Source: Kutzneria chonburiensis
Lineage (GTDB): Bacteria > Actinomycetota > Actinomycetes > Mycobacteriales > Pseudonocardiaceae
Assembly (NCBI RefSeq): GCF_028622115.1
Contig: NZ_CP097263.1
Location: 4,712,001-4,776,000 of the forward strand
DNA length: 64,000 nucleotides
Direction of reading: 5' to 3'
Part shown: in pieces, positions 3,253 through 25,593 of the stretch
Layout: each line of letters begins with the position of its first letter
Numbering within the stretch: the stretch's first letter is position 1
Translations under genes and position numbers: made by a program
Notes under the pieces: model-generated
What the model was told of the DNA's origin: nothing
The model's input: only the letters and a program-made list of their open reading frames with translations
Databases searched by the model: none

Positions 3253-3256
<4 letters not shown>

Positions 3257-6098: not shown

Positions 6099-6121
6099 CT
6101 CGCGAAGACTGTATGCAATCT
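6099..6121 (-). promoter_or_regulatory. Operator copy 1, upstream of the fdh operon
   Basis: Read on the minus strand the site begins AGATTGCATACAGT, identical for 14 bases to the copy at 25571; the right half is weak. It overlaps the stop codon of the upstream reductase gene (6120-6122) and faces the fdh operon. It is assigned to the GntR-type regulator at 7328 by association only. Confidence 0.6.
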
Positions 6122-7103
6122 ACGATATTCGCCTAGCCCGGTTCAGGGCAAGCAGGTCGACCGCGGCGTAGACATTGCGCAGGGTCGGGGCGGGGACGCC
6201 GGTCAACTCGGCCAGCTCGACGACGGCGCCGATGATGGCGTCGGTCTCCAGGGCCTTGCCGGCCTCGAGGTCCTGGAGCATCGAGGTCTTGTGGTTGCCG
6301 ACCCGCCGCGCCCCGTCGATGCGCTTCTCGATGGACACCGACGGCTGCGCGCCGGCGGCCCGGGCGATGGCCACGGTCTCGGCCATCATCGACGCGACGA
6401 CGGCTCGCGTGTCGTCGTGCTCGCAGATCTCGGCCATGGTCGCGCCGGTCAACGCGCTCAGCGGGTTGAAGGCGACGTTGCCCATCAGCTTGATCCAGAT
6501 GTCGTCACGCAGCCGCGCCTCGACCGGACACTTGAGACCGCCGGCGATCATCGCGGCGGACAGGTCCTGGCAGCGCCGGGAGATCGAGCCGTCGGGCTCG
6601 CCGATGGAGAACCGGGTGCCCTCGAGATGCCGGATCACGCCCGGCTCCTCGATCTCGGTCGAGCAGTAGACGACGCAGCCGATGGCCCGGCGCACGTCGA
6701 GCACCTCGCTGACCGCGCCGCCCGGGTCGACGGCCTCGATCCGTTGCCCCTCAAGGGGATGACCGGCCAGCCCGTGGAAGTACCACCACGGGATGCCGTT
6801 CTGCGCGGCCACCACGGCGGTGTCCGGGCCGAGCAGCGGCGCCAGCAACTTGCCGCACGACGCGTAGGAGTTGGCCTTCAGGCCGAGGAAGACGAAGTCG
6901 GCCTGGCCGACCTCGCCGGGATCGTCGGTGACCGGCGGCCGCGCGGTGAAATCGCCGCGTGGGCTGAGCACCCGCACGCCGTCGCGGCGCATGGCCGCCA
7001 GGTGCGCGCCGCGCGCGATCAGATGGACGTCGACACCGGCCCTGTGCAGGGCCGCCCCCACATAGGCGCCGATGGCCCCGGCGCCGAGAACAGCGACTTT
7101 CAT
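6120..7103 (-). CDS. Ketopantoate reductase family (ApbA/PanE) oxidoreductase
   Basis: This 327-residue protein opens with a textbook Rossmann motif (KVAVLGAGAIGAYVG), has the VFLGLKANS strand with its conserved Lys, the AAQNGIPWWYF loop and the C-terminal helical domain with ARLRDDIWIKLMGN and later GNHKTSMLQDLEAGKALETDAI. It therefore has the family's catalytic Lys and fold, and NADPH-linked reduction of a 2-oxo acid is likely. Its place, flanked on both sides by the regulon operator and beside gntR, speaks against a housekeeping pantothenate role and for a substrate connected with C2 acids (glyoxylate or a related 2-oxo acid). That last step is inference. Confidence 0.8.
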   Translation of the reverse strand: MKVAVLGAGAIGAYVGAALHRAGVDVHLIARGAHLAAMRRDGVRVLSPRGDFTARPPVTDDPGEVGQADFVFLGLKANSYASCGKLLAPLLGPDTAVVAAQNGIPWWYFHGLAGHPLEGQRIEAVDPGGAVSEVLDVRRAIGCVVYCSTEIEEPGVIRHLEGTRFSIGEPDGSISRRCQDLSAAMIAGGLKCPVEARLRDDIWIKLMGNVAFNPLSALTGATMAEICEHDDTRAVVASMMAETVAIARAAGAQPSVSIEKRIDGARRVGNHKTSMLQDLEAGKALETDAIIGAVVELAELTGVPAPTLRNVYAAVDLLALNRARRIS

Positions 7104-7124
7104 GGCTCACCTCAGTGTCGGCGG

Positions 7125-7147
7125 AGATTGAATACAGTATGCGATCT
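7125..7147. promoter_or_regulatory. Operator copy 2, most symmetrical, between reductase gene and gntR
   Basis: Left half AGATTGAATAC, central A, right half GTATGCGATCT: a 23-bp near-perfect palindrome 21 bases upstream of the minus-strand reductase gene. It is the best match to dyad symmetry among the copies and fits binding of a GntR dimer. Confidence 0.75.
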
Positions 7148-7263
7148 GGCGACGTTCGACGGTAGACCCCCGTGAGTGTTACGTCCGGTAGTAGTTCGAT
7201 TGCACTGTGTGCACGATTTGCGCTAGCATGACCACGCGAGGTGACCCGTCCCACGGGGAGTGT

Positions 7264-7286
7264 CTTTTGCATACGAAATTCTGTAA
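7264..7286 (+). promoter_or_regulatory. Operator half-site in front of gntR
   Basis: TTGCATAC at 7267-7274 repeats the left half-site, but the right half is not conserved. It lies 54 bases before the gntR start. A further imperfect dyad (GATTGCAC and GTGCACGA) occurs at about 7198-7220. Both are plausible autoregulatory sites, with low certainty. Confidence 0.4.
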
Positions 7287-7327
7287 CCTTTAAGCACCGA
7301 TCCCACGCTGTGCCCTAGGAGGCCCTG

Positions 7328-8068
7328 GTGAGCGAGCCCGCGACACCGTTCCCCGGCGGAGCGGTCAACCGGCGCCGGGCGACCCGCGGCACGCTCGGCG
7401 ACTCGGCCGCCCGCAAGGTTGAGCGCCCGGCCCCGCTGCGGCAGGCCGTCTACGAGGCCCTGATCGAACTGATCGTGAACCGCACGCTCCAACCGGGACA
7501 GCACCTCGTCGAGATCGAGCTCGCGGAGTACCTGGGGGTCAGCCGCCAGCCCGTTCGTGAGGCGCTGCAACGACTTCAGACCGAAGGCTGGGTGGATCTA
7601 CGCCCGGCCCAGGGTGCGTTCGTGCACACGCCGACCGAGGAAGAGGCCGACCAGCTGCTGAGCGTGCGCAGCGTGCTGGAGACCCACTCGGCCAAGCTGG
7701 CCGCCGAGAACGCCAACCCGAGCGACGTCCTCGTGCTGGAACATCTCCAGCTGGAGGGGGTCGACGCCCTGGAAAACCTGGATGTCGACCGGATGGTGGC
7801 GGCCAACGCGGCCTTGCACGCGTTCATCACCAAGCTGTCCGGCAACGCGGTGCTGGCTGAGCTCATCGGCCTGGTCGACCGCCGCGTGCGCTGGTACTAC
7901 ACGCCCATCGCCAGGCCTCGGGGCGAGGACGCGTGGGCCGAGCACGACCAGCTCATCCAAGCCATCGCCGCCGGCGACGCCGAGCAGGCCAGCCGGATCA
8001 TGACCGCGCATACGGAACGGACCCGACTGGCCTACCACGAGGAACGTCAAGCTCAGGCGAACAGCTAA
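7328..8068 (+). CDS. GntR-family regulator, FCD subfamily, probable regulator of the oxalate/formate regulon
   Basis: The 246-residue protein has an N-terminal tail, a winged helix-turn-helix at about residues 38-100 (LRQAVYEALIELIV, LAEYLGVSRQPVREALQRLQTEG) and an all-helical FCD effector domain whose metal/acid-binding histidines are plausible in ANAALHAFI, EHDQLI and TAHTERT. FCD regulators bind small carboxylates. GTG is the start, with TAGGAGG a few bases upstream. Its gene is divergent from the reductase with operator copies between, and its TAA overlaps the TAG of the convergent transporter within CTAA. It is the natural candidate to bind the shared palindrome; oxalate or an oxalate-derived acid as ligand is inference. 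Confidence 0.85.
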   Translation: MSEPATPFPGGAVNRRRATRGTLGDSAARKVERPAPLRQAVYEALIELIVNRTLQPGQHLVEIELAEYLGVSRQPVREALQRLQTEGWVDLRPAQGAFVHTPTEEEADQLLSVRSVLETHSAKLAAENANPSDVLVLEHLQLEGVDALENLDVDRMVAANAALHAFITKLSGNAVLAELIGLVDRRVRWYYTPIARPRGEDAWAEHDQLIQAIAAGDAEQASRIMTAHTERTRLAYHEERQAQANS

Positions 8069-9447
8069 GCGGTGGTTGGGGCGCCGAAGCCCGAGGCCGC
8101 GGCCGACACCGTGGTCTTGGTCTTCGGACGTCCCGGTTGGTGTAGGAACAGCGTGATACCGGCGGCCAGCAGAGCAATGCAGCCGGCGAGGATGTACGCG
8201 CCGGTGTAGCCCCACGCGGTGACCACCATGGCGCCGAGACCGCCGCCACCGACACCGCCCACGAGCTTGGCGCTGTACACCAGGCCGTAGTTGGTGGCGT
8301 TGTAGTTCTCACCGAAGTAGTCCGGCACCAGTGCGGCGAACAGCGGGTAGAACGCGCCGCCGCCGAAGCCGACCAGAAACGCGAACACCATGAACAGCGC
8401 GATGTTCTCGGTGTTGCCCGCGTAGACCAACCCGAACTGCGCGATGCCGGCGATCACCAGCACCAGGGTCAGCGTCTGCCGCCGTCCGATGTGGTCGGAC
8501 AGCCAGCCGACGAGCGCCCGGCCGGTACCGTTCACAATGGACAGGACGCCGGCCGAGGACGCCGCCACGAACGGCCCGAAGTGGCTGGCCGTCGCGAACT
8601 GCACCTGGAAGTTGATGCCGAACAGCGACACACCGCCGATGATGACCAGCGAGATCCACATCAGCGGCAGCATGCCGCTGCGAATGGCCTCGCCCGGGGT
8701 GAACTGCTTCACCGCGGGCGGGTTCTTGGCCAGGCTCTTGTTGGTCTTGGTGTTGCGCACCCACTCCTTGGGGTCGATGTGCTCGGGCCACCAGTTCTTC
8801 GGCGGATCCCGGAACATCAGTCCACACACGACCACCACGACCAGCATGTACAAGCCGATCAAGGACAGGATCAGGGTCGTGCTGCTCGGCGTGAGCACCG
8901 CGCTGAAGATGTAGATGAACGGCACCGCACCGTAGGCGAAGCCGCCGTTGACGAATCCGGTCCGCGCACCGCGTTTTTCCGGATACCACTTGCCGACCAT
9001 GTTGATGCACGTGGCGTACACCAGGCCGGCGCCGATGCCGCCGCAGACCGAGTAGCCGAGGAAGGCCAGCCCGAGGCTGCCGCTGTACGCGATCGTGAAG
9101 TAGCCGATGCCCGACAATGCCGCGCCCAACAACATTGCCGAACGAGCGGAAACCACGTTCTTCTCGCGTAAGCGCCCCGCGGGGAAGGCGATGGCGGCCT
9201 GGAAGACCGCCCACACCGTGGCCAACCAGAACACCTCGGTCAGCGTCCAGCCGTTCTTCGCTTCTAGCGTCTTCACGACGGCACCCCAGCCGTATTCGTA
9301 GACGCTGACCGCGATCATCGCGATCCATGGCAGCCAGACCATCCAGGCTCGGGAACGTCCCATGATGTCCTGAGGACTCTCGCCGATCCGGTAGACCCTG
9401 CCGTTGTCGTCAGTCAACTCCCTGTAACTGGTGGAACTTGTGGTCAT
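8065..9447 (-). CDS. Oxalate/formate antiporter-family (OFA) MFS transporter
   Basis: This 460-residue protein has 12 likely membrane helices and a cytoplasmic N-terminal segment (VYRIGESPQDIMGRSRAW) that recurs in the second transporter of the window at 24147. The MFS motif appears as VGWLSDHIGRRQT between helices 8 and 9, and the GMGxxY-like pocket of OFA proteins as GGIGAGLVYATCINMVGKWYPEKRG, where WFPE/KWYPEKRG is characteristic of the OFA group. It probably exchanges oxalate for formate or imports oxalate. It lies 123 bases after the acyl-CoA ligase on the same strand and has no operator copy of its own, so it may be read from the oxc-like promoter. Confidence 0.88.
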   Translation of the reverse strand: MTTSSTSYRELTDDNGRVYRIGESPQDIMGRSRAWMVWLPWIAMIAVSVYEYGWGAVVKTLEAKNGWTLTEVFWLATVWAVFQAAIAFPAGRLREKNVVSARSAMLLGAALSGIGYFTIAYSGSLGLAFLGYSVCGGIGAGLVYATCINMVGKWYPEKRGARTGFVNGGFAYGAVPFIYIFSAVLTPSSTTLILSLIGLYMLVVVVVCGLMFRDPPKNWWPEHIDPKEWVRNTKTNKSLAKNPPAVKQFTPGEAIRSGMLPLMWISLVIIGGVSLFGINFQVQFATASHFGPFVAASSAGVLSIVNGTGRALVGWLSDHIGRRQTLTLVLVIAGIAQFGLVYAGNTENIALFMVFAFLVGFGGGAFYPLFAALVPDYFGENYNATNYGLVYSAKLVGGVGGGGLGAMVVTAWGYTGAYILAGCIALLAAGITLFLHQPGRPKTKTTVSAAASGFGAPTTA

Positions 9448-9570
9448 CGGAGCCCTTTCGCGTCATTGCGAGTCCCCAGTTCCCCTGTGTGTCCCTCCGA
9501 AGGCGTGTCATCGAGCCGCGAGTGAATCGCTAAGTCTGGACCGGCATCATGCCTCCAATCCGGCTGCTTG

Positions 9571-11709
9571 TCAGCCCTCCAACAGTCCTGCTTCCCTGGC
9601 CCAGCGGTACTTCGCGCCGAGGACGGCGACCGGCTTCTCCGTGGTGTACGGGTAGGCCACGATCCCGTGGCGGTACAGGAACTCGGCCGCCTGCTCGACC
9701 TCGACGTCGCCCGACAGCGACGCCACGACCGGCTTGTGGATGCCGTGTTCCCGGTACTGCTCGACCACGTCGACGACGAGCTCGGCGAAGACCATGGGCG
9801 GCGTGACGATGGTGTGCCAGTAGCCCAGGATCAGCGCGTGCACCCGCTCGTCGGCCAGGCCGAGCGCGATGGTGTTGCGGTACGTCGACGGCGGCTCGCC
9901 GCCGGTGATGTCCACCGGGTTGCCGGCCGCGCCGAACGGCGGGATGTATTCCCGGAAGGACCTGTCCAGATCCTCCGGAATGGACATCAGCGTGAGGCCG
10001 TTGTCCACGCAGGCGTCCGACAGCAGCACACCCGAGCCGCCGGCGCCGGTGATGATCACGACGTTCTCACCCTTGGGGGTCGGCAGCAGCGGCACGCCGC
10101 GGGCGTACTCCAGCATGTCGTTGAGGCCCGGCGCCCGGATCACGCCGCTCTGCCGCAGGATGTCGTCGTAGACCTTGTCGTTGCCGGCCAACGCACCCGT
10201 GTGCGAGCTGGCCGCCTTGGCGCCCTGCGCGGTGCGCCCGGCCTTGAGCACCACCACCGGCTTGGACTTCGAGACCCGCTTGGCCGTCTCCGCGAAGGAG
10301 CGGCCGTCCTTGAGGTCCTCGAGGTGCATGGCGATCAGCTTGGTGTTGTCGTCGTGCTCGAAGAACGTCAGCAGGTCGTCCTCGTCGATGTCGGCCTTGT
10401 TGCCGACGCCGACGATCGCCGACACACCCATCTGCGCCGACCGGCTGAAGCCGAGGATGGCCATGCCGATGCCGCCGCTCTGCGAGGACAGCGCGACTCC
10501 ACCCTGCACGTCGTACGGGGTGCAGAAGGTAGCAGACAGATGCTCAGGTGTGTAGTAGTAGCCGTAGATGTTGGGGCCGAGGATGCGCACCTGGTGCTCA
10601 CGAGCGATCCTCACGATCTCGTCCTGGAGTTCGTGGTTGCCGGTCTCGCCGAAGCCGGACGGGATCAGGATCGCGCCGGCCACGCCCTTCTCGCCGACCT
10701 CCTTGAGCGCCTGCGGCACGAACTTGGCCGGGATGGCGAACACGGCCACGTCCACGTCGCCGGGCACGTCGCCGATGCGGGCGAAGGCCTTGCGGTCCAG
10801 TATCTCGGTGGCCTTGGGGTTGATCGGGTAGATCTCCCCCCGGTAGCCGCCGCTGACCAGGTTCTTCATCACCGAGTTGCCGATCTTGCCGTCCTCGGCC
10901 GACGCCCCGATCACGGCCACCGCGGCCGGCTTCATGATCCGGTTCATCGCGGCCAGGATCTCCTGCTGGGAGAACCGGTACGGCTCGGTGGCGGCCTCGG
11001 CGTCGACCAGGATGCGCACGTCGACCGCGGTCGCACCGGTCGGCGTGGCCAGCACCGGGTTGAGGTCCACTTCGGACAGTTGCGGGAAGTCGCCGACCAG
11101 GTCGGAAACCCGCGTGATCAGGTCGGCGATGGCGTCCCGGTCGGCCGGCTCGGCGCCGCGCACGCCGCGCAGGATCTCGGCCGCGGCGATGCCGTCGATC
11201 ATCGACAGCGCCTGCTCGCGATCCGTTGGCGCCAACCGGAAAGTGACGTCCTTGAGCACCTCGACCAGCACGCCGCCGAGGCCGAACGCGACGATCTTGC
11301 CGAAGGTCTGGTCGGTGGTCGCCCCGACGATGACCTCCTGCCCGGCCGGCAGCATCTGCTGCACCTGGATGCCGACGATCTTCGCGTTCGGGTTGTAGAT
11401 CTTGGCATTCGCCGTGATGGTACGGAATCCGTGCGCCACCTGGGCGGCGTCCTTGATCCCGACCAGCACGCCGCCGGCCTCGGTCTTGTGCAGGATGTCC
11501 GGCGACACGATCTTCAGCACCACCGGGAAGCCCATCCGCTCGGCCAGCTCGACCGCCTGCTCGGAGTCGGTGGCCAGGCCCTCGTCGGGTGTGCTGATGC
11601 CGTACGCGTCGCAGACGATCTTGCCCTCGGGCGCGGTCAGCGAGTCGCGGCCGTCCGCCGCGACCTGCGCGAGCACCCGCTGGACCGCCTCGCGGTCGTA
11701 GTTGACCAT
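9571..11709 (-). CDS. ADP-forming acyl-CoA ligase (acetate-CoA ligase type), beta-alpha fusion
   Basis: The 712-residue protein joins an N-terminal ATP-grasp domain (about 1-235; HKTEAGGVLVGI, FGLGGVLVEVLKD) to a CoA-binding domain (AVIGASAEDGKIGN at about 260) and a succinyl-CoA-ligase-like domain holding the likely phospho-acceptor His (ASSHTGALAGND). Domain order is beta then alpha, reversed relative to many ACD enzymes. It is the third gene of oxc-like/frc/ligase, 10 bases after frc, with AGGGG upstream. In this pathway it could recover ATP from formyl-CoA, or charge oxalate with CoA to start the cycle. Neither use can be read from sequence; the family is secure. Confidence 0.85.
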   Translation of the reverse strand: MVNYDREAVQRVLAQVAADGRDSLTAPEGKIVCDAYGISTPDEGLATDSEQAVELAERMGFPVVLKIVSPDILHKTEAGGVLVGIKDAAQVAHGFRTITANAKIYNPNAKIVGIQVQQMLPAGQEVIVGATTDQTFGKIVAFGLGGVLVEVLKDVTFRLAPTDREQALSMIDGIAAAEILRGVRGAEPADRDAIADLITRVSDLVGDFPQLSEVDLNPVLATPTGATAVDVRILVDAEAATEPYRFSQQEILAAMNRIMKPAAVAVIGASAEDGKIGNSVMKNLVSGGYRGEIYPINPKATEILDRKAFARIGDVPGDVDVAVFAIPAKFVPQALKEVGEKGVAGAILIPSGFGETGNHELQDEIVRIAREHQVRILGPNIYGYYYTPEHLSATFCTPYDVQGGVALSSQSGGIGMAILGFSRSAQMGVSAIVGVGNKADIDEDDLLTFFEHDDNTKLIAMHLEDLKDGRSFAETAKRVSKSKPVVVLKAGRTAQGAKAASSHTGALAGNDKVYDDILRQSGVIRAPGLNDMLEYARGVPLLPTPKGENVVIITGAGGSGVLLSDACVDNGLTLMSIPEDLDRSFREYIPPFGAAGNPVDITGGEPPSTYRNTIALGLADERVHALILGYWHTIVTPPMVFAELVVDVVEQYREHGIHKPVVASLSGDVEVEQAAEFLYRHGIVAYPYTTEKPVAVLGAKYRWAREAGLLEG

Positions 11710-11719
11710 CGTTGTCCCC

Positions 11720-12949
11720 TCAGATCACGCCGGCGGCGCGCAGCCGCTCCAGCTGGTCGGGGCCGTACCCCAGTTCGCCGAGCACCTCGACGTTGTGCTC
11801 GCCCAGCAGCGGCGAGCGGGTGATCTCCACCGACGAGTCGGAGAGCTTGAGCGGGTTGCCGACCGTCTTGTACGCGCCCCGGCCCGGGTGCGCCACCTCG
11901 ACCACGGAACCCAGTTCGGCCAGCGTCTCGTCCTCGATCAGCTCCTTGGTCGACAGGATCGGCCCGCACGGCACGTTGACCGCGTTGAGCTGCTCCATGA
12001 CGTCCCACTTGGTCAGGTTGCTGGTCCAGTCCTCGACCATGGCGAACACCTTGTCCAACTTGGACAGTCGGGCCTCCGGCGTCGCCCACTGCGGGTCGTC
12101 GGCCAGCTCCGGCTTGCCGATCAGCTCGGTGATCGGCCGCCAGCCCGGCGGCTGGATGATCACGTAGATGTAGTCGTTGGGCCCGCCCGGCGCGCAGCGC
12201 ACCGCCCATCCCGGCTGACCGCCGCCGGAAGCGTTGCCGGAACGGGGAACCTCGTCGCCGAAGCTCTCGTTCGGGTACTCGCCGAGTGGTCCGTGGGTCA
12301 GCCGCTGCTGGTCGCGCAGCTTCACCCGGCACAGGTTCAGCACCGCGTCCTGCATGGCCACCTGCACCCGCTGCCCGCGGCCGGAGTTCGTACGCTGGTA
12401 GAGCGCGGCCAGGATCGCGGCCACCAAATGGATGCCGGTGCCCGAGTCGCCGATCTGGGCGCCGGTCGCGGTGGGCGGGCCCTCCTCGAAGCCGGTGGTG
12501 CTCATCGAGCCGCCCATGGCCTGCGCGATCACCTCGTACGCCTTGAAGTCGGCGTACCGGCCGGGGCCGAAACCCTTGATGGAGGCGTAGATCAGGCGCG
12601 GGTTGAGCTCGCTCAGCTTCTCCCACGAAAAGCCGAAGCGGTCGATCACGCCCGGCCCGAAGTTCTCCACCAGAATGTCCACTTCGGACACCAGCTTGGC
12701 GAAGATCTTGGCGCCGTCCTCGCTCTTCATGTTCAGCGTGATGCTGCGCTTGTTGGAGTTCAGCATGGTGAAGTAGAGGCTGTCCTCGCCCGGGATGTCC
12801 CGCAGCTGGCCGCGGGTGATGTCACCGCGGCCCGGCGTCTCCAGCTTGATCACGTCCGCGCCCAGCCAGGCCAGCAGCTGGGTCGACGACGGACCGGACT
12901 GCACGTGGGTCATGTCGAGGACGCGCACGCCCTCCAGCGCCTTTCCCAT
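11720..12949 (-). CDS. frc: Formyl-CoA:oxalate CoA-transferase (CaiB/BaiF, class III)
   Basis: The 409-residue protein has the class III CoA-transferase fold. The catalytic Asp is Asp168 in [10 protein letters not shown], one off Asp169 of the Oxalobacter enzyme. A glycine loop ([10 protein letters not shown], about 240-248) corresponds to the mobile GGGGQ loop that is a hallmark of formyl-CoA transferases, although one Gly shorter. [30 protein letters not shown] at the N-terminus is typical. It transfers CoA from formyl-CoA (or possibly succinyl-CoA) to oxalate. ATG at 12949 is preferred to GTG at 12952 because GGAGG then has normal spacing. It sits 13 bases after the ThDP enzyme in one operon. 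Confidence 0.88.
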
Positions 12950-12962
12950 CACGGCCTCCAGC

Positions 12963-14687
12963 TCACTTGTACATGGTCTGGTTCATGGTTCCGGGGGCGT
13001 ACGCGTCCGGGTCGACCCAGACGTTGATCAGCGACGGCAGCCCGGACTCGCGGGCCCGCAGCAGCGCCGGCCCGATGTCGGCCGGGTCGCGCACCTCCTC
13101 GCCGTGGCCGCCGAGCATCCGGGCGAACTCGCCGTAGCGCACGTCGCCCAGCGTGTTGCCGACGCGTTCCCTTGCCAGGCCGTACTTCTGGGCCTGGCCG
13201 TAGCGGATCTGGTTCATCGACGAGTTGTTGCCGATGATGCCGACGAACGGCAGGTTGAACCGGACCAGGGTCTCGAAGTCCCAGCCGGTCATGGAGAACG
13301 CGCCGTCGCCGAACAGCGCGACGACCTCCTTGTCGGGGCGGGCCAGTTTGGCCGCCATCACGAAGGAGATGCCGACGCCGAGCGTGCCCAGCGGCCCCGG
13401 GTCCATCCAGTGGCCGGGCGAGCGGGGTTGCAGCACCTGGCCGGAGAAGGTGACGATGTCGCCGCCGTCGCCGACGTAGATGGAGTCCTCGGTGATGAAC
13501 TGGTTGATCTCGTGCATCAGCCGGTACGGGTGGATCGGGTTGGCGTCGGAAAGCAGCTGCGGCAACCGCTTCTGCCTGGCCTGCTCCTCCACCTTGTGCA
13601 GCTCCTCCAGCCACGGTTTGCGGCCGGTGGCCCCGTTGTCGACGCGACCGGAGGCGGCGGCGGTGACCGAGGAGAGGATCAGGCCGGGGTCGCCGACGAT
13701 GCCGAGGTCGATGTCCCGGTTCTTGCCGACGGTGCGGTAGTCCAGGTCGATCTGCACCACCGTCGCCTTGGCGGAAAGCCTTCGCCCGTAACCCATCCGG
13801 AAGTCGAACGGGGTGCCGACGATGACGATCACGTCGGCGTTGTCGAAGGCGTAGCGGCGCGAGAGCTGGAGGTGGTGCGGGTCGCCGGGCGGCAGCGTGC
13901 CGCGGCCGGCGCCGTTCATGTAGGCCGGGATGTTCAGCGTGCGCACCAGTTCGACGGCCGAGTCGGTGCCGCGCGTCGTCCAGACCTGGCTGCCCAGCAG
14001 GATCGCCGGCTTCTTGGCGTGCACCAACAGGTCCGCGAGCTTCTCCACGGCGGCCGGGTCGCCGGCCTGCCGGGTCGAGGCCCGGTAGCGGCCGGCCTGC
14101 GGGATGCGGGCCTTGTCCACCGGCACCTTGTTGTCCAGGACATCGCGCGGGATCTCCAGGTACGACGGGCCGGGCGCGCCGTTGAGCGACTCGCGGAAGG
14201 CCATCGACACCATGTCGGCCGCGCGGGCGGTGTCCGGCACGGTGGCGGCGAACTTGGTGATCGGGTTCATCATGTCGACGTGCGGCAGGTCCTGCAGCGA
14301 GCCCATCTTGTGCTGGGTCAACGCGCCCTGGCCGCCGATCAGCAGCATCGGGCTCTCCGCGCGGAAGGCGTTGGCCACGCCGGTGACCGCGTTCGTGGTG
14401 CCCGGGCCCGCGGTGACCACCGCGCAGCCGGGCGTGCCGGTGATGCGGGCGTACCCGTCGGCGGCGTGCGCGGCGACCTGCTCGTGGCGGACGTCGACGA
14501 CCTTGATGCCCTCGTCGACGCAGCCGTCGTAGATGTCGATGATGTGCCCGCCGCACAGCGTGAATATGGTGTCGACGCCCTCGGCCTTGAGCGCTTTCGC
14601 GACGAGATGGCCACCTGAGATCAACTGGGGCGCGGGGGCGGATCCGTTCGCCGTCTGGCTGTCTACCACGGGTTCTGTTCCCACCAT
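12963..14687 (-). CDS. ThDP-dependent enzyme of the IlvG/oxalyl-CoA decarboxylase family, probable oxalyl-CoA decarboxylase
   Basis: The 574-residue protein has the three-domain ThDP fold: the cofactor-activating Glu in [19 protein letters not shown], a central domain, and the ThDP/Mg motif [19 protein letters not shown]...IIGNN. By eye the N-terminal domain ([20 protein letters not shown]) is closer to mycobacterial IlvG-type proteins than to Oxalobacter Oxc. It lies first in an operon with frc, so decarboxylation of oxalyl-CoA to formyl-CoA is the likely reaction. A 2-hydroxyacyl-CoA lyase or carboligase reaction with formyl-CoA or glyoxylate is the main alternative. ATG at 14687 has GGAG nine bases upstream. 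Confidence 0.75.
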
Positions 14688-14721
14688 GCTGGTCAACTCC
14701 TCGCCGGCTCCGCTGCACTGT

Positions 14722-14744
14722 AGATTGCATACGATATGGAGTAG
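14722..14744. promoter_or_regulatory. Operator copy 3, between the oxc-like gene and sucC paralogue
   Basis: AGATTGCATAC followed by GATATGGAG: the left half is perfect and the right half partial. It lies 35 bases upstream of the oxc-like gene and could also serve the divergent sucC, whose start is 135 bases away. Confidence 0.7.
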
Positions 14745-14878: not shown

Positions 14879-16009
14879 GTGGATCTGTTCGAGCACGAGG
14901 CCAGGGACCTGTTCGCCCGGCACGGCGTCCCCGTGCCACCCGGCGAGGTCACCACGACACCGGCGGGCGCGTTCGCCGCCGCGGTGGACATCGGCGGGCC
15001 GGTAGTGGTCAAGGCCCAGGTGAAGACCGGCGGCCGCGGCAAGGCCGGCGGCGTCAAGCTGGCGACCACGCCGCAGGAGGCGCAGGCCGCGGCCGAGGCC
15101 ATCCTCGGGATGGACATCAAGGGGCACACCGTGCACAAGGTGCTGGTGACCGCCGCGTCCAAGATCGCCGACGAGTACTACTTCTCCTTTCTGTTGGACC
15201 GGGCCAACCGGACCTGGCTGGCGATGGCCTCGGCCGAGGGCGGCATGGACATCGAGGAGGTCGCGGCGACGCGGCCGGAGGCCCTGGTCCGCGAGCCCCT
15301 GGTCGACATGGACCTGGGCCGGGCCGCCGATCTCGCGCTGGCCGCCGGGCTGCCGGTCGAAGCGGCGGACGTGATCGTCAAGCTGTGGGAGGTGTTCGTC
15401 GCGGAGGACTGCACCCTGGTCGAGGTGAACCCGCTGGTGCGCACCGAGTCCGGCGAGATCATCGCGCTGGACGGCAAGATCACCCTGGACGACAACGCCA
15501 CCTTCCGGCACTCGCTGCGGCCGTTCGGGGTCGAGGTCGCCGACCCGCTGGAGCGGGCGGCGCACGAGAAGGGGCTCAACTACGTCAAGCTGACCGGGGA
15601 CGTCGGCGTGATCGGCAACGGCGCCGGGCTGGTGATGTCCACTTTGGACGTCGTCGCGCAGGCCGGCGGGGCCGGGCCGGCCAACTTCCTGGACATCGGC
15701 GGCGGCGCGTCGGCGCAGGTGATGGCCGACGGGCTGGAGATCATCCTCGGCGACGCCGACGTGCGCAGCGTGTTCGTGAACGTGTTCGGCGGTATCACCG
15801 CGTGCGATGCCGTCGCCGACGGCATCCTCCAGGCGCTGGGCATGCTGGGCTCGCGCGCGACCAAGCCGCTGGTGGTGCGGCTGGATGGCAACAACGTCAA
15901 GCGGGGACGGGAAATCCTGATCGAGGCCGGGCATCCGCTGGTGACCATGGTGGAGACGATGGACGACGCCGCGCGCACTGCCGCCCGGCTCGCGGCGCAG
16001 GGAGCGTGA
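14879..16009 (+). CDS. sucC: Succinate-CoA ligase (ADP-forming) beta subunit, pathway-associated paralogue
   Basis: The 376-residue protein is collinear with actinobacterial Suc[18 protein letters not shown] in the ATP-grasp domain, [28 protein letters not shown] for Mg-nucleotide, and [14 protein letters not shown] plus [16 protein letters not shown] in the C-terminal CoA-ligase domain. GTG is the start with GAGGAGGG seven bases upstream. It is divergent from the oxc-like gene over an operator, and one base separates it from sucD. Its location suggests a specialised copy, supplying succinyl-CoA as CoA donor for oxalate or acting directly on another short acid. That is inference, because the copy number in the genome cannot be seen from here. 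Confidence 0.9.
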
Positions 16010-16010
16010 C

Positions 16011-16889
16011 ATGGCGATCTTCATCGACGAGGGCAGCCGGGTCGTCGTGCAGGGCATGACCGGCGCGGAAGGCAGCAAGCACACCGCGCGCATGCTGCGG
16101 TCCGGCACCAACATCGTCGGCGGCGTCAACGCCCGCAAGGCCGGGCAGTCCTTGGCCGTGGAAGGCAAGTCGCTGCCGGTGTTCGGCGGCGTGGCCGAGG
16201 CGATGGCCGCGACCGGCGCCGATGTGTCCGTCCTTTTTGTACCGCCGCCGTTCGTCCGCGCCGCGGTGATCGAGGCCGTAGACGCCGGCATCGGGCTGGC
16301 GGTCGTGATCACCGAGGGCGTGCCGGTGCACGACACCGCCGCGTTCTGGGCCCATTCCGCCGGCAGCAAGACGCGGATCATCGGGCCCAACTGCCCCGGC
16401 GTGATCAGCCCGGGCAAGTGCAACGCCGGCATCATCCCGGCCGACATCACCAAGCCCGGCCGGGTCGGCGTGGTCTCCAAGTCGGGCACGCTGACCTACC
16501 AGCTCATGCACGAGCTGCGCGACTTCGGCTGCTCGACCGCCATCGGCATCGGCGGCGACCCGATCATCGGCACCACGCACATCGACGCGCTGCGGGCCTT
16601 CCAGGACGACCCCGAGACCGAGCTGATCGTCATGATCGGCGAGATCGGCGGCGACGCCGAGGAGCGGGCCGCCGCTTTCGTGCAGGCCAACGTGACCAAG
16701 CCGGTCGTCGGCTACGTCGCCGGTTTCACCGCGCCCGAGGGCAAAACCATGGGCCACGCCGGCGCCATCGTCTCCGGTTCGTCGGGCACCGCCGAGGCGA
16801 AGAAGGTGGCGCTGGAGGCCGCCGGCATCGCCGTCGGTCGCACTCCGGGCGAAACCGCTTTGCTGGCAAGGGAACTGCTCACGGCGTGA
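16011..16889 (+). CDS. sucD: Succinate-CoA ligase alpha subunit, pathway-associated paralogue
   Basis: The 292-residue protein has the CoA-binding Rossmann domain ([15 protein letters not shown]), [23 protein letters not shown], and the phosphohistidine His249 in [12 protein letters not shown]. It follows sucC with a single base between TGA and ATG, so the two are made together and should form the usual alpha-beta complex. Length and motifs are complete. A hairpin terminator follows directly. Confidence 0.9.
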
Positions 16890-16897
16890 CCCGAGCG

Positions 16898-16937: not shown

Positions 16938-16947
16938 ATTCAAGTTG

Positions 16948-17847: not shown

Positions 17848-18001
17848 TGCTGTTGACCTCCCCTTGGTCGTTGCGAGGAAGACTCTCCCAGTGCCCGGTC
17901 ACGCCCGTCAGAGCCGTTCACCTCAAGGGTGTCGGGATAATTTCCCGGCCAAACCCCGTAACGCTTGACCTTGTCGCAGCGTGCAGGTGTTTGCTTAGAC
18001 C

Positions 18002-19248: not shown

Positions 19249-19505
19249 GGTTCCTGCTCGTCCTCCCCGAAGCCGAGCAGGAACCGCACGGGCGGCCGAG
19301 TCGGACCTCTCCCCTGGTCCGCACGCCCGCCCCTCGTCAGGCGCGTGGGCCATTCGACTCAACCAATCCACCCCTCGGACGGCCACCGGTGGTAACACCA
19401 GTTGACCGCCGCCGGACCAGTCTATGGCAGCGACCGGGGGTGTCAACTACTCTTGGGTCGGCCGGCCCCTGGGGTCGACATCAGTTGAGCGGAGTGGGGG
19501 ACGCC
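19249..19505. promoter_or_regulatory. Intergenic region upstream of the EspR-like gene
   Basis: About 257 bases hold no gene. A TTGACC box at 19402 and inverted GGTGGTAACACC at about 19388 may belong to the promoter of the EspR-like gene; nothing is decisive. Confidence 0.3.
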
Positions 19506-19952: not shown

Positions 19953-20798
19953 CCGGCCCAACGCGGGCACGGCGACAGCGAGCTGCCGCGCGGTTCCGAC
20001 GCTGACCCGCTGGGAAAGCACGTCGTAGTCGGCGCGTTCGATGGCGCCGAGAATGCCGCCGTACAGGTCCATCCCGGCCAGGGCGGTCTGACGGCCGACG
20101 GGCTCCAACAGCGGCACGCCGGCACGGGCCTGGCGGTAGAGCTCGCGGGCCCGGGCGATCTCGAACTTGATCAGGGAACGGAACTCGGGGCTCAGGCCGA
20201 TCTCGGTCACGGTGAAGCGGCGAAGATCCTCGGCCGGCAGGTAGACGCGGCCGCGGCGCAGGTCGTCGCCGACGTCACGCAGGATGTTGGTGAGCTGGAA
20301 GGCGATGCCCATCAGGCGCATGGCCTCGGCGGCTTCGGCCGAACGACCGCCGAGCACGGGCACCAGCTGCAAGGCCATGGTGCCGGCGGCGCCGTGCATG
20401 TAGACCTCGAGGTCGCTGTAGGTCTCGTACGACGTGACGACCAGGTCCGAAGCCATGGCGTCGAGAAAGGTCTCGACGAGGTGCACGGGAATGTCCCAGG
20501 TCTGCAAGGTGTGCAGCAGCGCGCGGCCGAACTCGTCGGCGGTGTCGCCGGCCTTCAGATCGGCGAGGATCTGGTCACGCCAAGGCGCGAACGAAGCGGT
20601 GTCGGAGCCGTCGACCATCTCGTCGGCGTGCCGGGCGAAGCCGTAGATGGCCTGCACGAACGGCCGCCGGGCCGGCGGCAGCAACAGCGAAGCCAGGTAG
20701 TAGGACTTGTCGTGCGCGGCCAGCAACTCCTTGCACCGCAGGTAGCACGCACGCAGCTGGGGATCGCGGATGCCGGCGGCATCGAGCTCAGAGGTCAC
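19914..20798 (-). CDS. Squalene/phytoene synthase-like trans-isoprenyl enzyme
   Basis: The 294-residue protein has both Asp-rich motifs of the family: FARHADEMVDG (first Asp of the canonical DDxxD replaced by Ala-Asp-Glu) and QLTNILRDVGDDLRRGRVYLP, plus the SYYLASLLLP and YMHGAAGTMALQL segments. It should condense two prenyl diphosphates head to head. No phytoene desaturase, cyclase or squalene-hopene gene is adjacent. Instead its GTG overlaps the stop of the DUF6545 membrane gene (GTGA), so it is translated with that protein and the ImmA/IrrE peptidase. This is not a standard carotenoid or hopanoid cluster. Confidence 0.85.
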   Translation of the reverse strand: MTSELDAAGIRDPQLRACYLRCKELLAAHDKSYYLASLLLPPARRPFVQAIYGFARHADEMVDGSDTASFAPWRDQILADLKAGDTADEFGRALLHTLQTWDIPVHLVETFLDAMASDLVVTSYETYSDLEVYMHGAAGTMALQLVPVLGGRSAEAAEAMRLMGIAFQLTNILRDVGDDLRRGRVYLPAEDLRRFTVTEIGLSPEFRSLIKFEIARARELYRQARAGVPLLEPVGRQTALAGMDLYGGILGAIERADYDVLSQRVSVGTARQLAVAVPALGRSWLTRLAAVRSS

Positions 20799-21877
20799 GG
20801 CTGTCCTTGGTAGGCGGCCAACACGTCGTCGAGCGGACGGGACCGCGCGGCCCGCGCGATCCCGAGCCACCAGTCTATGTCCCCGGCCAGATCGGGCCCG
20901 TCCAGCCCGGTCTCGCCGGACATGGTGGGGTGCAAGGCAAGCAGCCCGTCCCACAGCTCGATCACCCGCCGGTACACCAGGGCGTGCTGCTGCCCGGGCC
21001 GCAGCCGCAGCCGGTCGTGCCACTCGGACCGCGGCGGATCGAGCGTGACCGTGGCGCCGGTCAGCAGGCGCCACAACGGATATAGCCGCCGACGGTGGCG
21101 ATAATGCCTGGTAGCGCGGGCAAACGCCTCGATCCGCGGCCCCCAGGCCGGCGCGGTCACGCCGACGAACGCAGTCACCAGACTCACCGCGACCAAGGCG
21201 CCCTCGGCCTGGAGCTGCACCCACGGCGGCGTGATCCCGAACGCCTCGGCCAGCTGGTATCCCACCACGTGCACACAGAACAACAGCCCGAATACGCAGC
21301 CGATGGTGTGAAGCCGCAGCCCACGCCGCAGCCACGGCAGGTCGGCCTTGGCCGCCCAGCGCCACGACGCCGAGGTGAAACTCGCGATGGTGTAAGCGAA
21401 GTAGCTGACGATCACGACGTAACTCAGGGCAGCCACGGGATGCACCGGGCCGGGGGTGACCATCCGACCGGCCGGTCCGCGCAGGAAGTCGACGTCACGG
21501 GGCATGGTCGCGAACAGGATCAGCCCGACCGCCAGCGCCGAAACGCCGATCACCGCCGAACGCCGCACCAGCGAGGCAACTTTGGTGCGCTGCAAGGGAT
21601 CCGCAGTGGCCAGCCAGAAGAAGGTCTGCGTGAAGAAGCCGCCGGCGCAGGCGATCACGTGCAGCAGCGGCCAGGCCAACGCCCAGCCGGCCCAGCGGTC
21701 CACGCCCACCGCGAACGACTCGATCTCCAATGGCACGGCCAAGAACCACGCGGCGAAGCCGAGTGCCAGCACGTGCCCGGGTCGCCGGTCGACGGTGACG
21801 CGCACGAGCATGCGCAGCCGGAGCATCAGCGCGGCGGCGGCGACCACGACCGTGGCCACCAGGGCGACGGTCAGCAC
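20795..21877 (-). CDS. DUF6545 / MAB_1171c-type seven-helix membrane protein
   Basis: The 360-residue protein shows about seven hydrophobic helices in residues 1-235, with histidines at conserved-looking helix positions (PLLHVIACAGGFFTQTFFW, GPVHPVAALSY, CVHVVGYQ), and a cytoplasmic C-terminal domain (IEAFARATRHYRHRRRLYPLWRLLTG, then RPGQQHALVYRRVIELWDGLLAL). This is the pattern of the actinobacterial MAB_1171c family, which is often found beside XRE and ImmA/IrrE genes; its function is unknown. It overlaps the peptidase gene by seven bases upstream and the isoprenoid synthase by four bases downstream. Confidence 0.75.
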   Translation of the reverse strand: MLTVALVATVVVAAAALMLRLRMLVRVTVDRRPGHVLALGFAAWFLAVPLEIESFAVGVDRWAGWALAWPLLHVIACAGGFFTQTFFWLATADPLQRTKVASLVRRSAVIGVSALAVGLILFATMPRDVDFLRGPAGRMVTPGPVHPVAALSYVVIVSYFAYTIASFTSASWRWAAKADLPWLRRGLRLHTIGCVFGLLFCVHVVGYQLAEAFGITPPWVQLQAEGALVAVSLVTAFVGVTAPAWGPRIEAFARATRHYRHRRRLYPLWRLLTGATVTLDPPRSEWHDRLRLRPGQQHALVYRRVIELWDGLLALHPTMSGETGLDGPDLAGDIDWWLGIARAARSRPLDDVLAAYQGQP

Positions 21878-22407
21878 AGTTCGCGGGCCAGGGCGTCCAC
21901 GATCTGCGCCTCGGCCTCGGTGAGGTTGCGGTGTCCGGCAGTCGGCGCGAGCTCGCCCAGCGCCCGCACGGCGGCGCCGGCGAACACCTCGGCCTCGACC
22001 TCCTGATCGTCGGTGAAGCCGCCGCGGCCAAGAATCCGCGACAGCAGCGCCGGGCTGAGATTCGGTACGAGCGCGTTCAGCACTTTCATCAGGACGTCCC
22101 GCGTGGCTGGGTCGACGTCGCAGGTCCTCGCGTGCCCGGGCAGCAGCATGTGCCCGATCTCGTGCCAGATGACGTGGATCTGGTACAGCGCGCTGGATCC
22201 CACCGATTGGTAGACGATGTAGTCGGCGTCGGCCATGCCCAGCCAGGCCCCGCTGATCGATGTCCGCAGCGGCAACGGGATCAGGTGCAGCGGCCGATCC
22301 CGGTCCCGCGACAGCCGTTGGCACACAACGCGAACGTCCGGATGCAGGAAGTCACGACGTCGGAGTTCGCCCAGCACGTGATCGACCGTGGCGCGCCGCC
22401 TACCCAT
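21871..22407 (-). CDS. ImmA/IrrE-family zinc metallopeptidase
   Basis: The 178-residue protein carries HEIGH at residues 82-86 with a supporting C-terminal acidic region (DQEVEAEVFAGAAVRAL) that supplies the third zinc ligand in this family. Such peptidases typically cleave a partner XRE repressor. The only XRE-type gene nearby is the EspR-like one at 19506. GGGGAG precedes ATG 22407. The gene heads a three-gene overlapping unit: peptidase, DUF6545 protein, isoprenoid synthase. Confidence 0.85.
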   Translation of the reverse strand: MGRRRATVDHVLGELRRRDFLHPDVRVVCQRLSRDRDRPLHLIPLPLRTSISGAWLGMADADYIVYQSVGSSALYQIHVIWHEIGHMLLPGHARTCDVDPATRDVLMKVLNALVPNLSPALLSRILGRGGFTDDQEVEAEVFAGAAVRALGELAPTAGHRNLTEAEAQIVDALARELC

Positions 22408-22448
22408 GTGGAGGGCACTCCCCTCGGATCCGTGCGTGGTAGACCATT

Positions 22449-23309
22449 CTAGCGCGCGTGGCGCAAGCGGTTGGCGTCGGCGATGATGGCTGCCCCAAGG
22501 GCCCTGGCCGTCTCGGTGCGCACACGGGGCGGCGGCGACAGTACGAACTCGACCTCGCCAAGGGCCGGAAGTCCCTGCTGGGGGCCGAGTTCGACCAGAT
22601 CGTGCGGGATGAGGCTACGGGTGTGAGCGGTCACGCCGAGTCCGGCCAGCACGGCCGCGCGCAGCCCGCTCAGGCTGGTGCTCGTGCAGGCGATGCGAAA
22701 CCCTCGGCCATGCCACTGCAGGGTTTCCAACGCTTGCGCACGGCTGACGCTCGGCTCCGGGTACAGGATCAGCGGGACATCGGCGGCGGGATCGATCCGG
22801 GTGGTCTCGGTGCCGACCCAGACCAGCCGGTCCCGCCACACCAGCTGCCCGTGGGCCGCGCCCAGTTGCCGTTTGCCGAAAACAAGATCCAGTTGGCGAG
22901 CTTCCAACTTGCGGTGCAGTTCGCCGCTGAGCCCCACGGTCAGCTCCAGCTCCACGCCGGGATGGCGCCGCCGGAAGTCCCGCAGCACGTCGGTCAGGTA
23001 CGTGGCGACGAAATCCTCCGAGGCCCCGAACCGCAGCCGTCCGCGCAGCTGAGGTCCGGCGAAGAAGCTCACCGCCTCCCGGCCGGTGTCGAGGATGGTG
23101 CGGGCGAAGCCGACCATGGCCTCGCCGTCCGGCGTCAGCTCGACGGTGTGCGTGTCGCGCAGGAACATCTGCTTGCCGAGGGTCGCCTCCAGCTGCCGCA
23201 CGTGCTGGCTGATCGTCGACTGCCGGACGCCGAGCTGGTCGGCGGCCTGGGTGAAGCTGAGCGTCTGAGCGACGGCCAGGAAGCTCTCCAGCTGTGCCGG
23301 CTTGAACAT
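22449..23309 (-). CDS. LysR-type regulator in the fdhD operon
   Basis: The 286-residue protein has the N-terminal LTTR helix-turn-helix (LESFLAVAQTLSFTQAADQLGVRQSTISQHVRQLE) and a two-lobed ligand domain. It starts 13 bases after fdhD and follows OFA transporter and fdhD on the same strand. It is therefore a second candidate regulator of formate or oxalate metabolism, or a sensor feeding into the peptidase gene 41 bases downstream. Confidence 0.85.
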   Translation of the reverse strand: MFKPAQLESFLAVAQTLSFTQAADQLGVRQSTISQHVRQLEATLGKQMFLRDTHTVELTPDGEAMVGFARTILDTGREAVSFFAGPQLRGRLRFGASEDFVATYLTDVLRDFRRRHPGVELELTVGLSGELHRKLEARQLDLVFGKRQLGAAHGQLVWRDRLVWVGTETTRIDPAADVPLILYPEPSVSRAQALETLQWHGRGFRIACTSTSLSGLRAAVLAGLGVTAHTRSLIPHDLVELGPQQGLPALGEVEFVLSPPPRVRTETARALGAAIIADANRLRHAR

Positions 23310-23322
23310 GGGGCCAGCGTAA

Positions 23323-24147
23323 TCAGAGTCCCAGTCGTCGGCTGCCGGTATAGACGTTCATGGACGTGCCGCGCAGGAAGCCGATCAGCGTCAGCCCCAT
23401 CTCCGCGGCCAGCTCGACGGCCAGCGAGGACGGCGCCGACACCGCGGCCAGCACCGGGATGCCGGCCATCACCGCCTTCTGCACCAACTCGAAGGATGCT
23501 CGGCCGCTGACCATGAGCACGGTTCCGCTCAACGGCAGGCGGTCCTCCCGCAGCGCCCAGCCGATCACCTTGTCCACGGCATTGTGTCGGCCGACGTCCT
23601 CGCGCAGGCACAGCAGCCGACCGTCCCGGGTGAACAGTCCCGCGGCGTGCAGGCCACCCGTTCGATCGAACACCAGCTGGGCCGTGCGCAGGGTGTCCGG
23701 CATCGTGGTGACGGTGTCGATGTCGACCTGGAGCTCGTCGTACTCGACGGTCCAGCGGCTGGTCGCCCGCACCGCGTCCAGGCTGGCCTTGCCGCACAGG
23801 CCGCACGAGGAGGTGGTGTAGAAGTTGCGCTCCACCGACGGATCCGGCGGCGGCACCCCGGCGGCCAAAGTAACGTCCAGGACGTTATATGTGTTGCCGC
23901 CGTCGACGGTCGCGCCGGCGCAGTACCGGATCGCGTTCAGCTCGCCGGCCTTGCCGATCACGCCCTCGGAGACCAGAAAGCCCGCCGCCAGGTCGAAATC
24001 ATGGCCGGGCGTGCGCATCGTGACCGACAGCGGCTGACCGCCGACCCGGATCTCCAGCGGCTCCTCGGCGGCCAGGGTGTCCGGCCGGGCGCTCACCCGG
24101 CCGTCCACCACCCGGACGACACGTCGCCGTGCCGTGACGCGGCCCAT
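23323..24147 (-). CDS. fdhD: FdhD, sulfurtransferase for formate dehydrogenase maturation
   Basis: The 274-residue protein shows the FdhD loop [14 protein letters not shown] with Cys115 and Cys118, [19 protein letters not shown] (cofactor pocket), and [16 protein letters not shown]. FdhD hands sulfur from a cysteine desulfurase to the Mo-bisPGD cofactor, which formate dehydrogenase requires for activity. Its ATG overlaps the transporter stop (TGATG). The only molybdenum FDH visible is the one at 1117-5606, so the two loci belong functionally together. Confidence 0.93.
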
Positions 24148-25361
24148 CAGGCCGGCACCAGCAGTCGCGGGACGCCGGGTTGACGCAACATGGCGGCGGC
24201 GACGGCGCCGAGGACGCCCAGGCCCGCCGCGAGCAGGAAGCCCGCCGCGAAGCCGTACATCGCGACCATGGTGGTCGCGAGGCCGATGCCGACGATGCCG
24301 CCGACCGCCTTGGCGCTGTAGACCAGGCCGAAGTTCAGCAGGCCCGCCTGGTCGCCGAAGTGGGCTTCGACCAGGGCCGGCAGTAGGGCGTAGCAGCAGC
24401 CGGCGGTGGTGCCGACCAGCAGTGCCGCGAACACCATGAGGACGCCCGACTGGTGTTGACCCGCGACGATCATCAGGAGTTGCCCGAGGGCGCCAAGGGC
24501 CAGCGCCGCGCGGACCACCCGTCCGACGCCGAACTGCTCGCCCGCCCAGCCCGTCGCCCAGCGGGCCACGCCGCTGGCCAGCGTCAGCACGCAGACCGTG
24601 ACCGCCGCGAACGCGTAGCCCCATCCGCTGGACGCCACGAACGCCGCTGTGTAGGCAACGTCGAACAGCCACGCCGCCGCCGCGCAGGCGACCAGCACGT
24701 ACATCACCGCCGAGGTCGGGCAACGCAGCAGTTGGCCCGGCGTGTAGTTGCGGATCGCCGGGCGGCTGTGCCGCAGGCTGAGGTTCACAGTCTTGTCCAG
24801 CGCCCACTTCCGCGGGTCCGGCTTCGCCGGCCACCAGTCCGCCGGCGGCTCCCTCAGCACGATGCCGGCCGCCGTGATCACCACCAGTGCGATGATCGGC
24901 AGCGGCGTCGCGAACAACACCGCACCCGCCGCGAACGACCCGCTCACCAGGCCCAGATACGTTCGCCTTTCCGGGAACCACTTCGCCACCACGCCGAAGC
25001 ACGTGCCGTACACCACCGCCGCCCCGAGGCCGCCCAGCACCGCCGTGGCCGGTCCTTGGAACAGGTCTCCCGCCGCCGTCAGGACTGCCCCCGCCGGCAT
25101 CGCCAGCATCGGCTTCACGTGCAGTCGTTCCCTCAGCCAGGCCATCGGGAACACCGCAACCGCTTGCGTGGCCACCCAGATCGCCAGCAGCCAGTAGTCC
25201 CCGCCCACGATCAGGCCGAAGCCGTACTGCCCTGCCCCCGCGACCAGCATCGCCACACAGGCCGCTGCCAGCACCCAGTTCCTGGAGTGCCCCAGCAGCT
25301 CACGATCGCTCTCCCCGACCCGGTACCGCCGGCCGTAGAAGTCGGTCACTTCGGTTGCCAT
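24147..25361 (-). CDS. Second OFA-type MFS transporter
   Basis: About 404 residues and 12 membrane helices, with the same N-terminal signature as the transporter at 8065 ([19 protein letters not shown]) and [18 protein letters not shown]. It is shorter, lacking a few loop segments, so it is a diverged paralogue. It is followed without a gap by fdhD, and its leader faces the operator shared with moeA. Formate or oxalate transport is probable. ATG 25361 is preferred over GTG 25370 because GGTAGGTGAG then lies at usual spacing. Confidence 0.82.
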
Positions 25362-25570
25362 CGGTCTCACCTACCCGCAGTCGTCGATGCCGCTCGCCGG
25401 CCTTGTTCCCTCGTGCCCGTTCACCGAGCCCGCCGATCCACTCGCCCTGCCACGCCGTCCGGCCAACCGAACCGGCCGGCCACCAGCCCGCCCGTCCCCG
25501 CGCTTCGATCACCCGGCCATTGGCCCGTCGACCCTCCGAGCCGGCCTCCTCCACTCGTTCGCCTCACACC
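25362..25570 (-). other. G-rich, C-poor leader of the second OFA transporter operon
   Basis: About 210 bases between the operator and the transporter hold no supported gene. On the transcribed strand the sequence is rich in G and poor in C, like the 490-base leader of the fdh operon. No repeat is present here. Confidence 0.35.
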
Positions 25571-25593
25571 AGATTGCATACAGTATGTGATAA
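25571..25593. promoter_or_regulatory. Operator copy 4, between second OFA transporter and moeA-like gene
   Basis: AGATTGCATAC, central A, GTATGTGATAA: left half perfect and right half with nine of eleven bases of consensus. It ends ten bases before the moeA-like ATG, so it must overlap that gene's promoter or leader. Confidence 0.75.

Follow-up and report, generated by a model that had tools for sequence, protein, structure and literature searches.

A palindromic operator at oxalate and formate genes of Kutzneria chonburiensis points to a GntR/FCD regulon that includes fdhD and moeA

The window analyzed here comprises 64,000 nucleotides (bases 4712001-4776000) of the single-contig 10.4-Mb genome of Kutzneria chonburiensis. 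It contains genes for oxalate and formate catabolism, a gene for a GntR/FCD transcriptional regulator among them (gntR, 7328-8068, plus strand), and several copies of a near-symmetric element of 19-22 bp. Comparison with related loci in other actinomycetes supports the prediction of (i) one shared operator, (ii) a pathway-specific GntR/FCD protein proposed to bind all copies, including those in its own promoter, and (iii) a regulon with fdhD and moeA among its members.

The oxalate genes flank gntR. On one side, panE (6120-7103, minus strand) encodes a PanE/ApbA-family reductase that belongs by sequence to the ketopantoate-reductase family (NF005089 over its cut-off; PF02558/PF08546) and is proposed, from gene context, to be a PanE2-like oxalyl-CoA reductase. 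On the other side, four minus-strand genes encode OFA1, an oxalate/formate antiporter family transporter of the major facilitator superfamily (MFS) (8065-9447; PF07690; TIGR00890 with E-value 5.4e-59, under cut-off), an ADP-forming acyl-CoA synthetase, Acs (9571-11709; PF13607, PF13549, PF19045), the formyl-CoA:oxalate CoA-transferase Frc (11720-12952; TIGR03253 at 650.9 bits, over the cut-off of 504.2), and an Oxc-like thiamine diphosphate enzyme, a proposed oxalyl-CoA decarboxylase (12963-14687). The plus-strand genes sucC (14879-16009; NF001913 over cut-off) and sucD (16011-16889; NF004230 over cut-off) encode SucC-like beta and SucD-like alpha subunits of a CoA ligase. Further along lie three minus-strand genes, for a LysR-type regulator (22449-23309; PF00126, PF03466), the formate dehydrogenase accessory sulfurtransferase FdhD (23323-24144; PF02634 at 242.7 bits, over cut-off; NF001943 over cut-off on a longer frame), and OFA2, a second oxalate/formate-type MFS transporter (24147-25370; PF07690; TIGR00890 with E-value 4.1e-24, under cut-off), and the plus-strand gene of a MoeA paralogue (25604-26779; PF03453 at 110.6 bits and PF00994, both over cut-off).

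The formate dehydrogenase genes are on the minus strand beyond panE. They encode the catalytic part of FdhA, of the molybdenum-bis(pyranopterin guanine dinucleotide) type and without the Mo_Fe4S4 domain (3690-5606, the start inferred from relatives), the NuoF-like subunit FdhB (2036-3559, start uncertain; PF01512, PF10589), and, as a protein of its own with a C-terminal Mo_Fe4S4 domain, the N-terminal Fe-S portion of FdhA (1117-2253, start uncertain; PF13510, PF04879). In this split arrangement (1117-5663, minus strand), the catalytic part comes first and the Fe-S/Mo_Fe4S4 gene lies downstream, after fdhB. The TIGR01591 cut-off of 666.25 is not reached in one protein, the catalytic part covering model positions 53-672 with 657.1 bits and the other protein positions 1-50. 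Among 47 loci with both pieces, 22, the window included, have the split and reordered FdhA (the window, L132-L156 in part, L195, L201, L204, L207, and L210, with no fdhB between the pieces in L201), and in 25 the two pieces are fused in a single frame, with 36-39% identity over the catalytic part. One genome, G127, holds a second formate dehydrogenase set across the OFA-fdhD operator (L083:5878-9839; 34-46% identical), with the Fe-S part and fdhA in one 1012-residue frame.

A preliminary description of this stretch had listed operator copies, each a half-site followed by an inverted half-site, at 6099, 7125, 14722, and 25571, and a lone half-site at 7267. All four copies exist: AGATTGCATAC occurs exactly at 6111-6121 (minus strand), 14722, and 25571 (both plus strand), and AGATTGAATAC occurs exactly at 7125 (plus strand). 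The inverted second half, however, does not hold up at 6099. Scored by hand as letters matching GTATGCAAT, it agrees at 8/9 positions at 7125, 7/9 at 25571, 6/9 at 14722, and 4/9 at 6099; because of this last count, the 6099-6121 copy, which reads as one half-site followed by AGTCT, is called a half-site in the source strain. The place at 7267 is real but better than a half-site, since a 22-mer at 7264 scores 27.2 and ranks third in the window by the matrix described below. The operators thus placed lie in the panE/gntR intergenic region (7125-7147, about 20 bp from the panE start), in the gntR promoter (7264-7285, about 40 bp from gntR), between the oxc-like gene and sucC (14722-14744, about 35 bp from oxc-like), between OFA2-fdhD and moeA (25571-25593, about 10 bp from the moeA ATG), and ahead of the fdh operon, overlapping the panE stop codon (6106-6121, minus strand, a single good half). 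A scan of 5500-7400 for a sigma-70 pattern gave no match. The 7264 operator is identical in sequence in three of four Kutzneria relatives (L039, L040, L041), the 25571 operator recurs in Kutzneria and in Lentzea (genus g8), and the site at the fdh position is kept in three of the four Kutzneria relatives, the fourth having no fdhA there.

The element is rare in the genome, where searches used letter patterns; matrix scoring was applied to the window and to chosen stretches. The pattern AGATTGNATAC has four matches in 10.4 Mb, all of them at the four listed copies and within 20 kb, and its reversed control has none. The palindrome ATTGNATACNGTATNCAAT, allowing at most three mismatches, is found at four genome places (7127, 14724, 25573, and C1:1216581), again with none for the reversed control. 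A looser pattern, TTGCATACNRTMT with one mismatch, gives 12 matches genome-wide versus 3 for its reversed control, and six of the 12 (five places) fall inside the window. Random scatter through the genome, named at the outset as grounds for giving up the regulon, was therefore not what these pattern searches returned. Six candidates were rejected as regulon members. Four lie within genes: C1:10320654 (L218:4651-4672, score 24.6) in the coding region of another FCD/GntR gene, C1:10325408 (14.8) in an HTH/TPR gene, position 1595 of L218 (15.3) in a DUF2201 gene, and C1:4711546 (14.5) in a predicted coding frame. The surroundings of C1:6182921 contain no score of at least 9, and those of C1:1273316 reach 10.5 at most.

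The motif was also derived from other genera. We took 80 named gntR loci, the top-ranking ones of 356 found, and collected the upstream regions of homologues of the window genes; the window and two Kutzneria loci were removed, and dropping near-duplicates reduced 440 regions to 286. The best motif of an expectation-maximization search seeded by the most over-represented 8-mers was AtATTGCATACAGTATgCtGTA, estimated to be present in 57% of regions. In the window, the resulting matrix puts 25571 (32.3), 14722 (29.3), 7264 (27.2), 7125 (24.0), and 6100 (23.5) at the top, and the next separate place scores 8.5. A matrix blind to the genus Kutzneria thus recovers the five listed places, 7267 included. 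All five score at least 14, and a first-order Markov model of the window, used to generate 2 Mb of simulated sequence, produced no place at that level. Natural DNA is less clean in this respect: in L218, a 14-kb stretch picked for its pattern matches, three places score above 14, each within a predicted gene. We had tried a 16-bp element, AGATTGCATACAGTAT, as the site frame, which fits 6106-6121 well, and dropped it, as the motif derived without a preset frame holds a palindrome with 1-bp spacing; the frame first described thus stands, with 6099 as a weak copy. Over 78 loci, the matrix finds 323 sites, with 269 near starts of recognized pathway genes, 7 intragenic, and 47 elsewhere, figures that are descriptive because the loci were picked by gntR and used to train the matrix.

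For a hold-out test, a second matrix was built from loci of the window's own family without the window and Kutzneria (240 regions, 125 without near-duplicates) and applied to other families, where regions from -350 to +30 were scanned and a site was counted at a score of at least 12; the counts overlap, as divergent genes share regions. Sites were found in 45/56 gntR regions (Streptomyces 30/33, the Mycobacterium group 12/16, Actinacidiphila 2/2, and one Nocardiopsaceae locus 1/1), as well as in 14/15 regions of panE, 5/6 of oxc-like, 4/6 of sucC, 11/17 of fdhD, and 3/3 of moeA. None of 675 shuffled regions had a site, and neither did the operon-internal genes acs (0/9) and sucD (0/5). These results bear on the idea that the motif arose by chance or belongs to the promoter core and is no operator. 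AT-rich words do mark promoters in a 70% GC genome, and L218 has lone strong matches within genes; yet the empty shuffles, the operon-internal genes without sites, the near-symmetry over 19-22 bp, and the few reversed-control matches leave this idea hardly any probability.

The regulator protein exceeds the Pfam cut-offs for both of its domains (PF00392, 67.8 versus 27 bits; PF07729, 81.6 versus 24.3 bits), and its predicted structure has a mean pLDDT of 86.4. The ligand set of the FCD pocket is Asp or Asn plus three His. This set is present in the protein, with Asn in place of Asp: N160, H164, H206, and H228 are invariant in the alignment rows of 24 homologues, and we take them to be the metal and carboxylate pocket of FCD proteins. 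Across 150 genomes of the family, we compared gntR orthologues (E-value at most 1e-40; 61 genomes) with a 13-mer, YTGYATACMGTAT (56 genomes). Both occur in 52 genomes, gntR only in 9, the 13-mer only in 4, and neither in 85 (Fisher p 6e-26); that is, the 13-mer is present in 52/61 gntR-bearing versus 4/89 gntR-less genomes, whereas its reversed control is found in 7/61 versus 5/89 (p 0.23). The Fisher p overstates the case, because sites from 40 loci of these 150 genomes had been seen before the 13-mer was drawn up, and because the genomes are related. In G103, which has the 13-mer and no gntR orthologue, the motif-bearing contig carries an Oxc-like gene. This co-occurrence and the sites in the gntR promoter suggest that the protein binds the operators, and the claim of a pathway-specific GntR/FCD protein in the midst of the sites is supported by its domains, by the orthologue tracking the motif, and by the hold-out gntR regions.

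It is quite improbable that a different regulator, such as the LysR protein (22449-23309) or another FCD paralogue, reads the motif and that gntR is a mere target. The LysR gene downstream of fdhD is kept in 4/4 fetched Kutzneria relatives, and the match scoring 24.6 at C1:10320654 lies inside another FCD/GntR gene. Against such a regulator speak the hold-out sites upstream of gntR and the co-occurrence of motif and gntR over 150 genomes; moreover, a LysR homologue is found in 1/81 stretches, the window itself, although these stretches extend at most 10 kb to each side of gntR, so that an equally distant LysR gene would be missed.

An operator-like site at C1:1216581-1216599 (L003:1501-1519) precedes an aldehyde dehydrogenase gene by about 40 bp; the nearest models for this gene are of the succinate-semialdehyde type, under cut-off. 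Within the genus, site and gene are kept in 5/5 genomes with gntR (the match to the gene covers 252/453 residues in G142), and the gene was not found in the 2/2 genomes without gntR. This aldehyde dehydrogenase is possibly a further target of the regulon.

The inclusion of the FdhD and MoeA paralogues in the regulon is well supported by sequence comparison. The genome holds two FdhD genes, the other at C1:9424349, and three MoeA_N genes, the window copies being the extra ones. The operator between moeA and OFA2-fdhD is present in 4/4 gntR-bearing Kutzneria relatives. Its neighbors are moeA, OFA2, and fdhD in three of them; L082, the fourth, keeps the site and OFA2, with neither moeA nor fdhD found beside the site. 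It is likewise present in 5/5 gntR-bearing genomes of Lentzea, together with moeA, an OFA gene, and fdhD. The Kutzneria and Lentzea moeA/fdhD stretches were chosen around motif matches. In Actinoallomurus, Actinomadura, and Marinactinospora (L195, L202, L204), an operator lies between panE and moeA. The preliminary claim that the regulon extends to molybdenum cofactor and FdhD genes thus agrees with the recurrence of the operator at these genes and with their hold-out counts.

The least typical enzyme of the pathway is the Oxc-like protein. Its TIGR03254 score is 249 bits versus a cut-off of 739.4, and its top model, an acetolactate synthase one, is likewise under cut-off. Among solved structures, its best matches are 2-hydroxyacyl-CoA lyases (296 bits), followed by chains annotated as lyase, oxalyl-CoA decarboxylase, or both (about 257 bits), YfdU (210.5), and the Oxc 2c31 (183); its C-terminus is without the ESGH stretch of E. 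coli Oxc. By comparison, a canonical Streptomyces Oxc from such a locus scores 985.7 bits. In its own genome, 0/13 TIGR03254 matches exceed the cut-off (20 candidates scored), and no canonical Oxc over this cut-off was found in the 150 family genomes, with at most eight best candidates scored in each. The Oxc-like gene itself is found at E-value 1e-200 in 59/150 family genomes, 57 of which also have gntR.

These matches could mean that the regulon serves formate or another acyl-CoA pathway and that the Oxc-like protein is a 2-hydroxyacyl-CoA lyase or an acetolactate-synthase-like enzyme; in 8/80 named loci, moreover, neither Frc nor any Oxc lies in the stretch, some of these ending at a contig edge. 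We regard this alternative as doubtful, given that Frc exceeds its family cut-off and that the Oxc-like gene, present at 75% identity or more in 38/80 named loci, has Frc beside it in 37 of them. Another 23 loci carry canonical Oxc (at least 50% identity to E. coli Oxc), no locus has both types, and 19 have neither at these levels, some stretches again ending at a contig edge. In four loci of the Actinoplanes/Plantactinospora type (L190, L192, L193, L194), canonical oxc is preceded by operators, at a distance of roughly 80-370 bp. The operator ahead of canonical oxc and the mutual exclusion of the two types tie the regulator to oxalate and indicate that the Oxc-like protein is a likely substitute for canonical oxalyl-CoA decarboxylase.

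Judging from the sites observed, how rare and conserved they are, and which genes they adjoin, we infer a mechanism in which the GntR/FCD protein (7328-8068) is a local, ligand-released repressor of oxalate/formate catabolism acting through the shared operators, a reading to which we assign a probability of about 0.82. The protein would block transcription by binding operators of the ATTGCATAC-N-GTATGCAAT type near the starts of panE, gntR, oxc-like, and moeA, as well as the copy before fdh, until an oxalate-derived ligand (oxalate, oxalyl-CoA, or formate) frees the DNA of it. Induction would then produce the whole pathway at once: transport by OFA1 and OFA2, CoA activation and transfer by the CoA ligases and Frc, decarboxylation by the Oxc-like enzyme, reduction to glyoxylate by PanE, and oxidation of formate by the split molybdenum-type formate dehydrogenase, for which the extra FdhD and MoeA copies would ready the metal enzyme. 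An activator role for the GntR protein is rather unlikely, since operators this close to start codons (about 10-45 bp at panE, gntR, oxc-like, and moeA) would fit occlusion of the promoter, and hence repression, better. There is perhaps an even chance that, in several actinomycete families, the operators have stayed fixed and the enzymes have been swapped, with the Oxc-like protein as a second, non-orthologous oxalyl-CoA decarboxylase in places where the canonical one is missing, a split and reordered molybdenum-type formate dehydrogenase replacing the fused one, and private FdhD and MoeA co-induced for its maturation.

Several observations weigh against the repressor reading. The Oxc-like and both OFA proteins score under their family cut-offs. 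In the hold-out families, sites precede canonical oxc in only 4/19 regions, fdhA in 1/4, frc in 15/34, and OFA1 in 16/45, and none was found in E. coli-type frc regions (0/6) or before gntR of the four Micromonosporaceae loci (0/4). The exact 13-mer is missing from 9/61 gntR-bearing family genomes, the genome counts are not independent owing to kinship, and gntR orthologues at E-value 1e-50 occur in 11/396 genomes of an even draw of the phylum (its own included), so the orthologue is patchy beyond the family. Finally, the likely fdhA start is the ATG at 5606, after GGGAGG, some 500 bp from the fdh operator. Between this operator and fdhA lies an 85-bp tandem repeat of 3.2 units (5688-5961) that is not there in three relatives; in L040, L041, and L042, the operator is about 26-35 bp from the fdhA ATG. 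As both genes are on the minus strand, fdhA may be read through from the panE promoter.

Regulons of the FCD subfamily of GntR proteins are known for FadR, PdhR, LldR, and McbR. The system described here resembles them in combining a winged-helix GntR domain with FCD, in the location of the gene beside an organic-acid pathway, and in a palindromic AT-rich operator; it differs in its targets, oxalate/formate genes and molybdenum cofactor paralogues. The best NCBIfam model for the GntR protein reaches 107 bits, under its cut-off of 271.5. PanE2 belongs to a route of oxalate assimilation, that of Methylobacterium extorquens. The gene panE2 is termed oxalyl-CoA reductase (PMC12686821), and a PanE-named reductase acting on oxalyl-CoA is common to that route and the pathway proposed here, a likeness by name. 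The nearest described control of frc and oxc that we encountered is in E. coli, where EvgA binds inverted repeats at the yfdXWUVE (frc-oxc) operon, so that in both systems frc and an oxc or oxc-like gene would be under a regulator of inverted repeats (PMC3720670). EvgA is a two-component acid-response regulator, and the passages on this control mention neither FdhD nor MoeA. An oxalate regulon under a GntR protein was not found among the literature matches listed, which were seen at the level of titles and abstract starts and included few subscription papers. The predicted regulon is of a known type, with unusual gene content.

Such a regulon would offer a concrete and conserved entry point to the control of oxalate turnover by actinomycetes in soil, with a likely regulator named for Kutzneria, Amycolatopsis, Lentzea, Streptomyces, and some Mycobacterium species. 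It suggests that a single catabolic regulon can include genes whose products make a metal enzyme ready, and the Oxc-like protein emerges as a probable oxalyl-CoA decarboxylase, though no family model used names it so.

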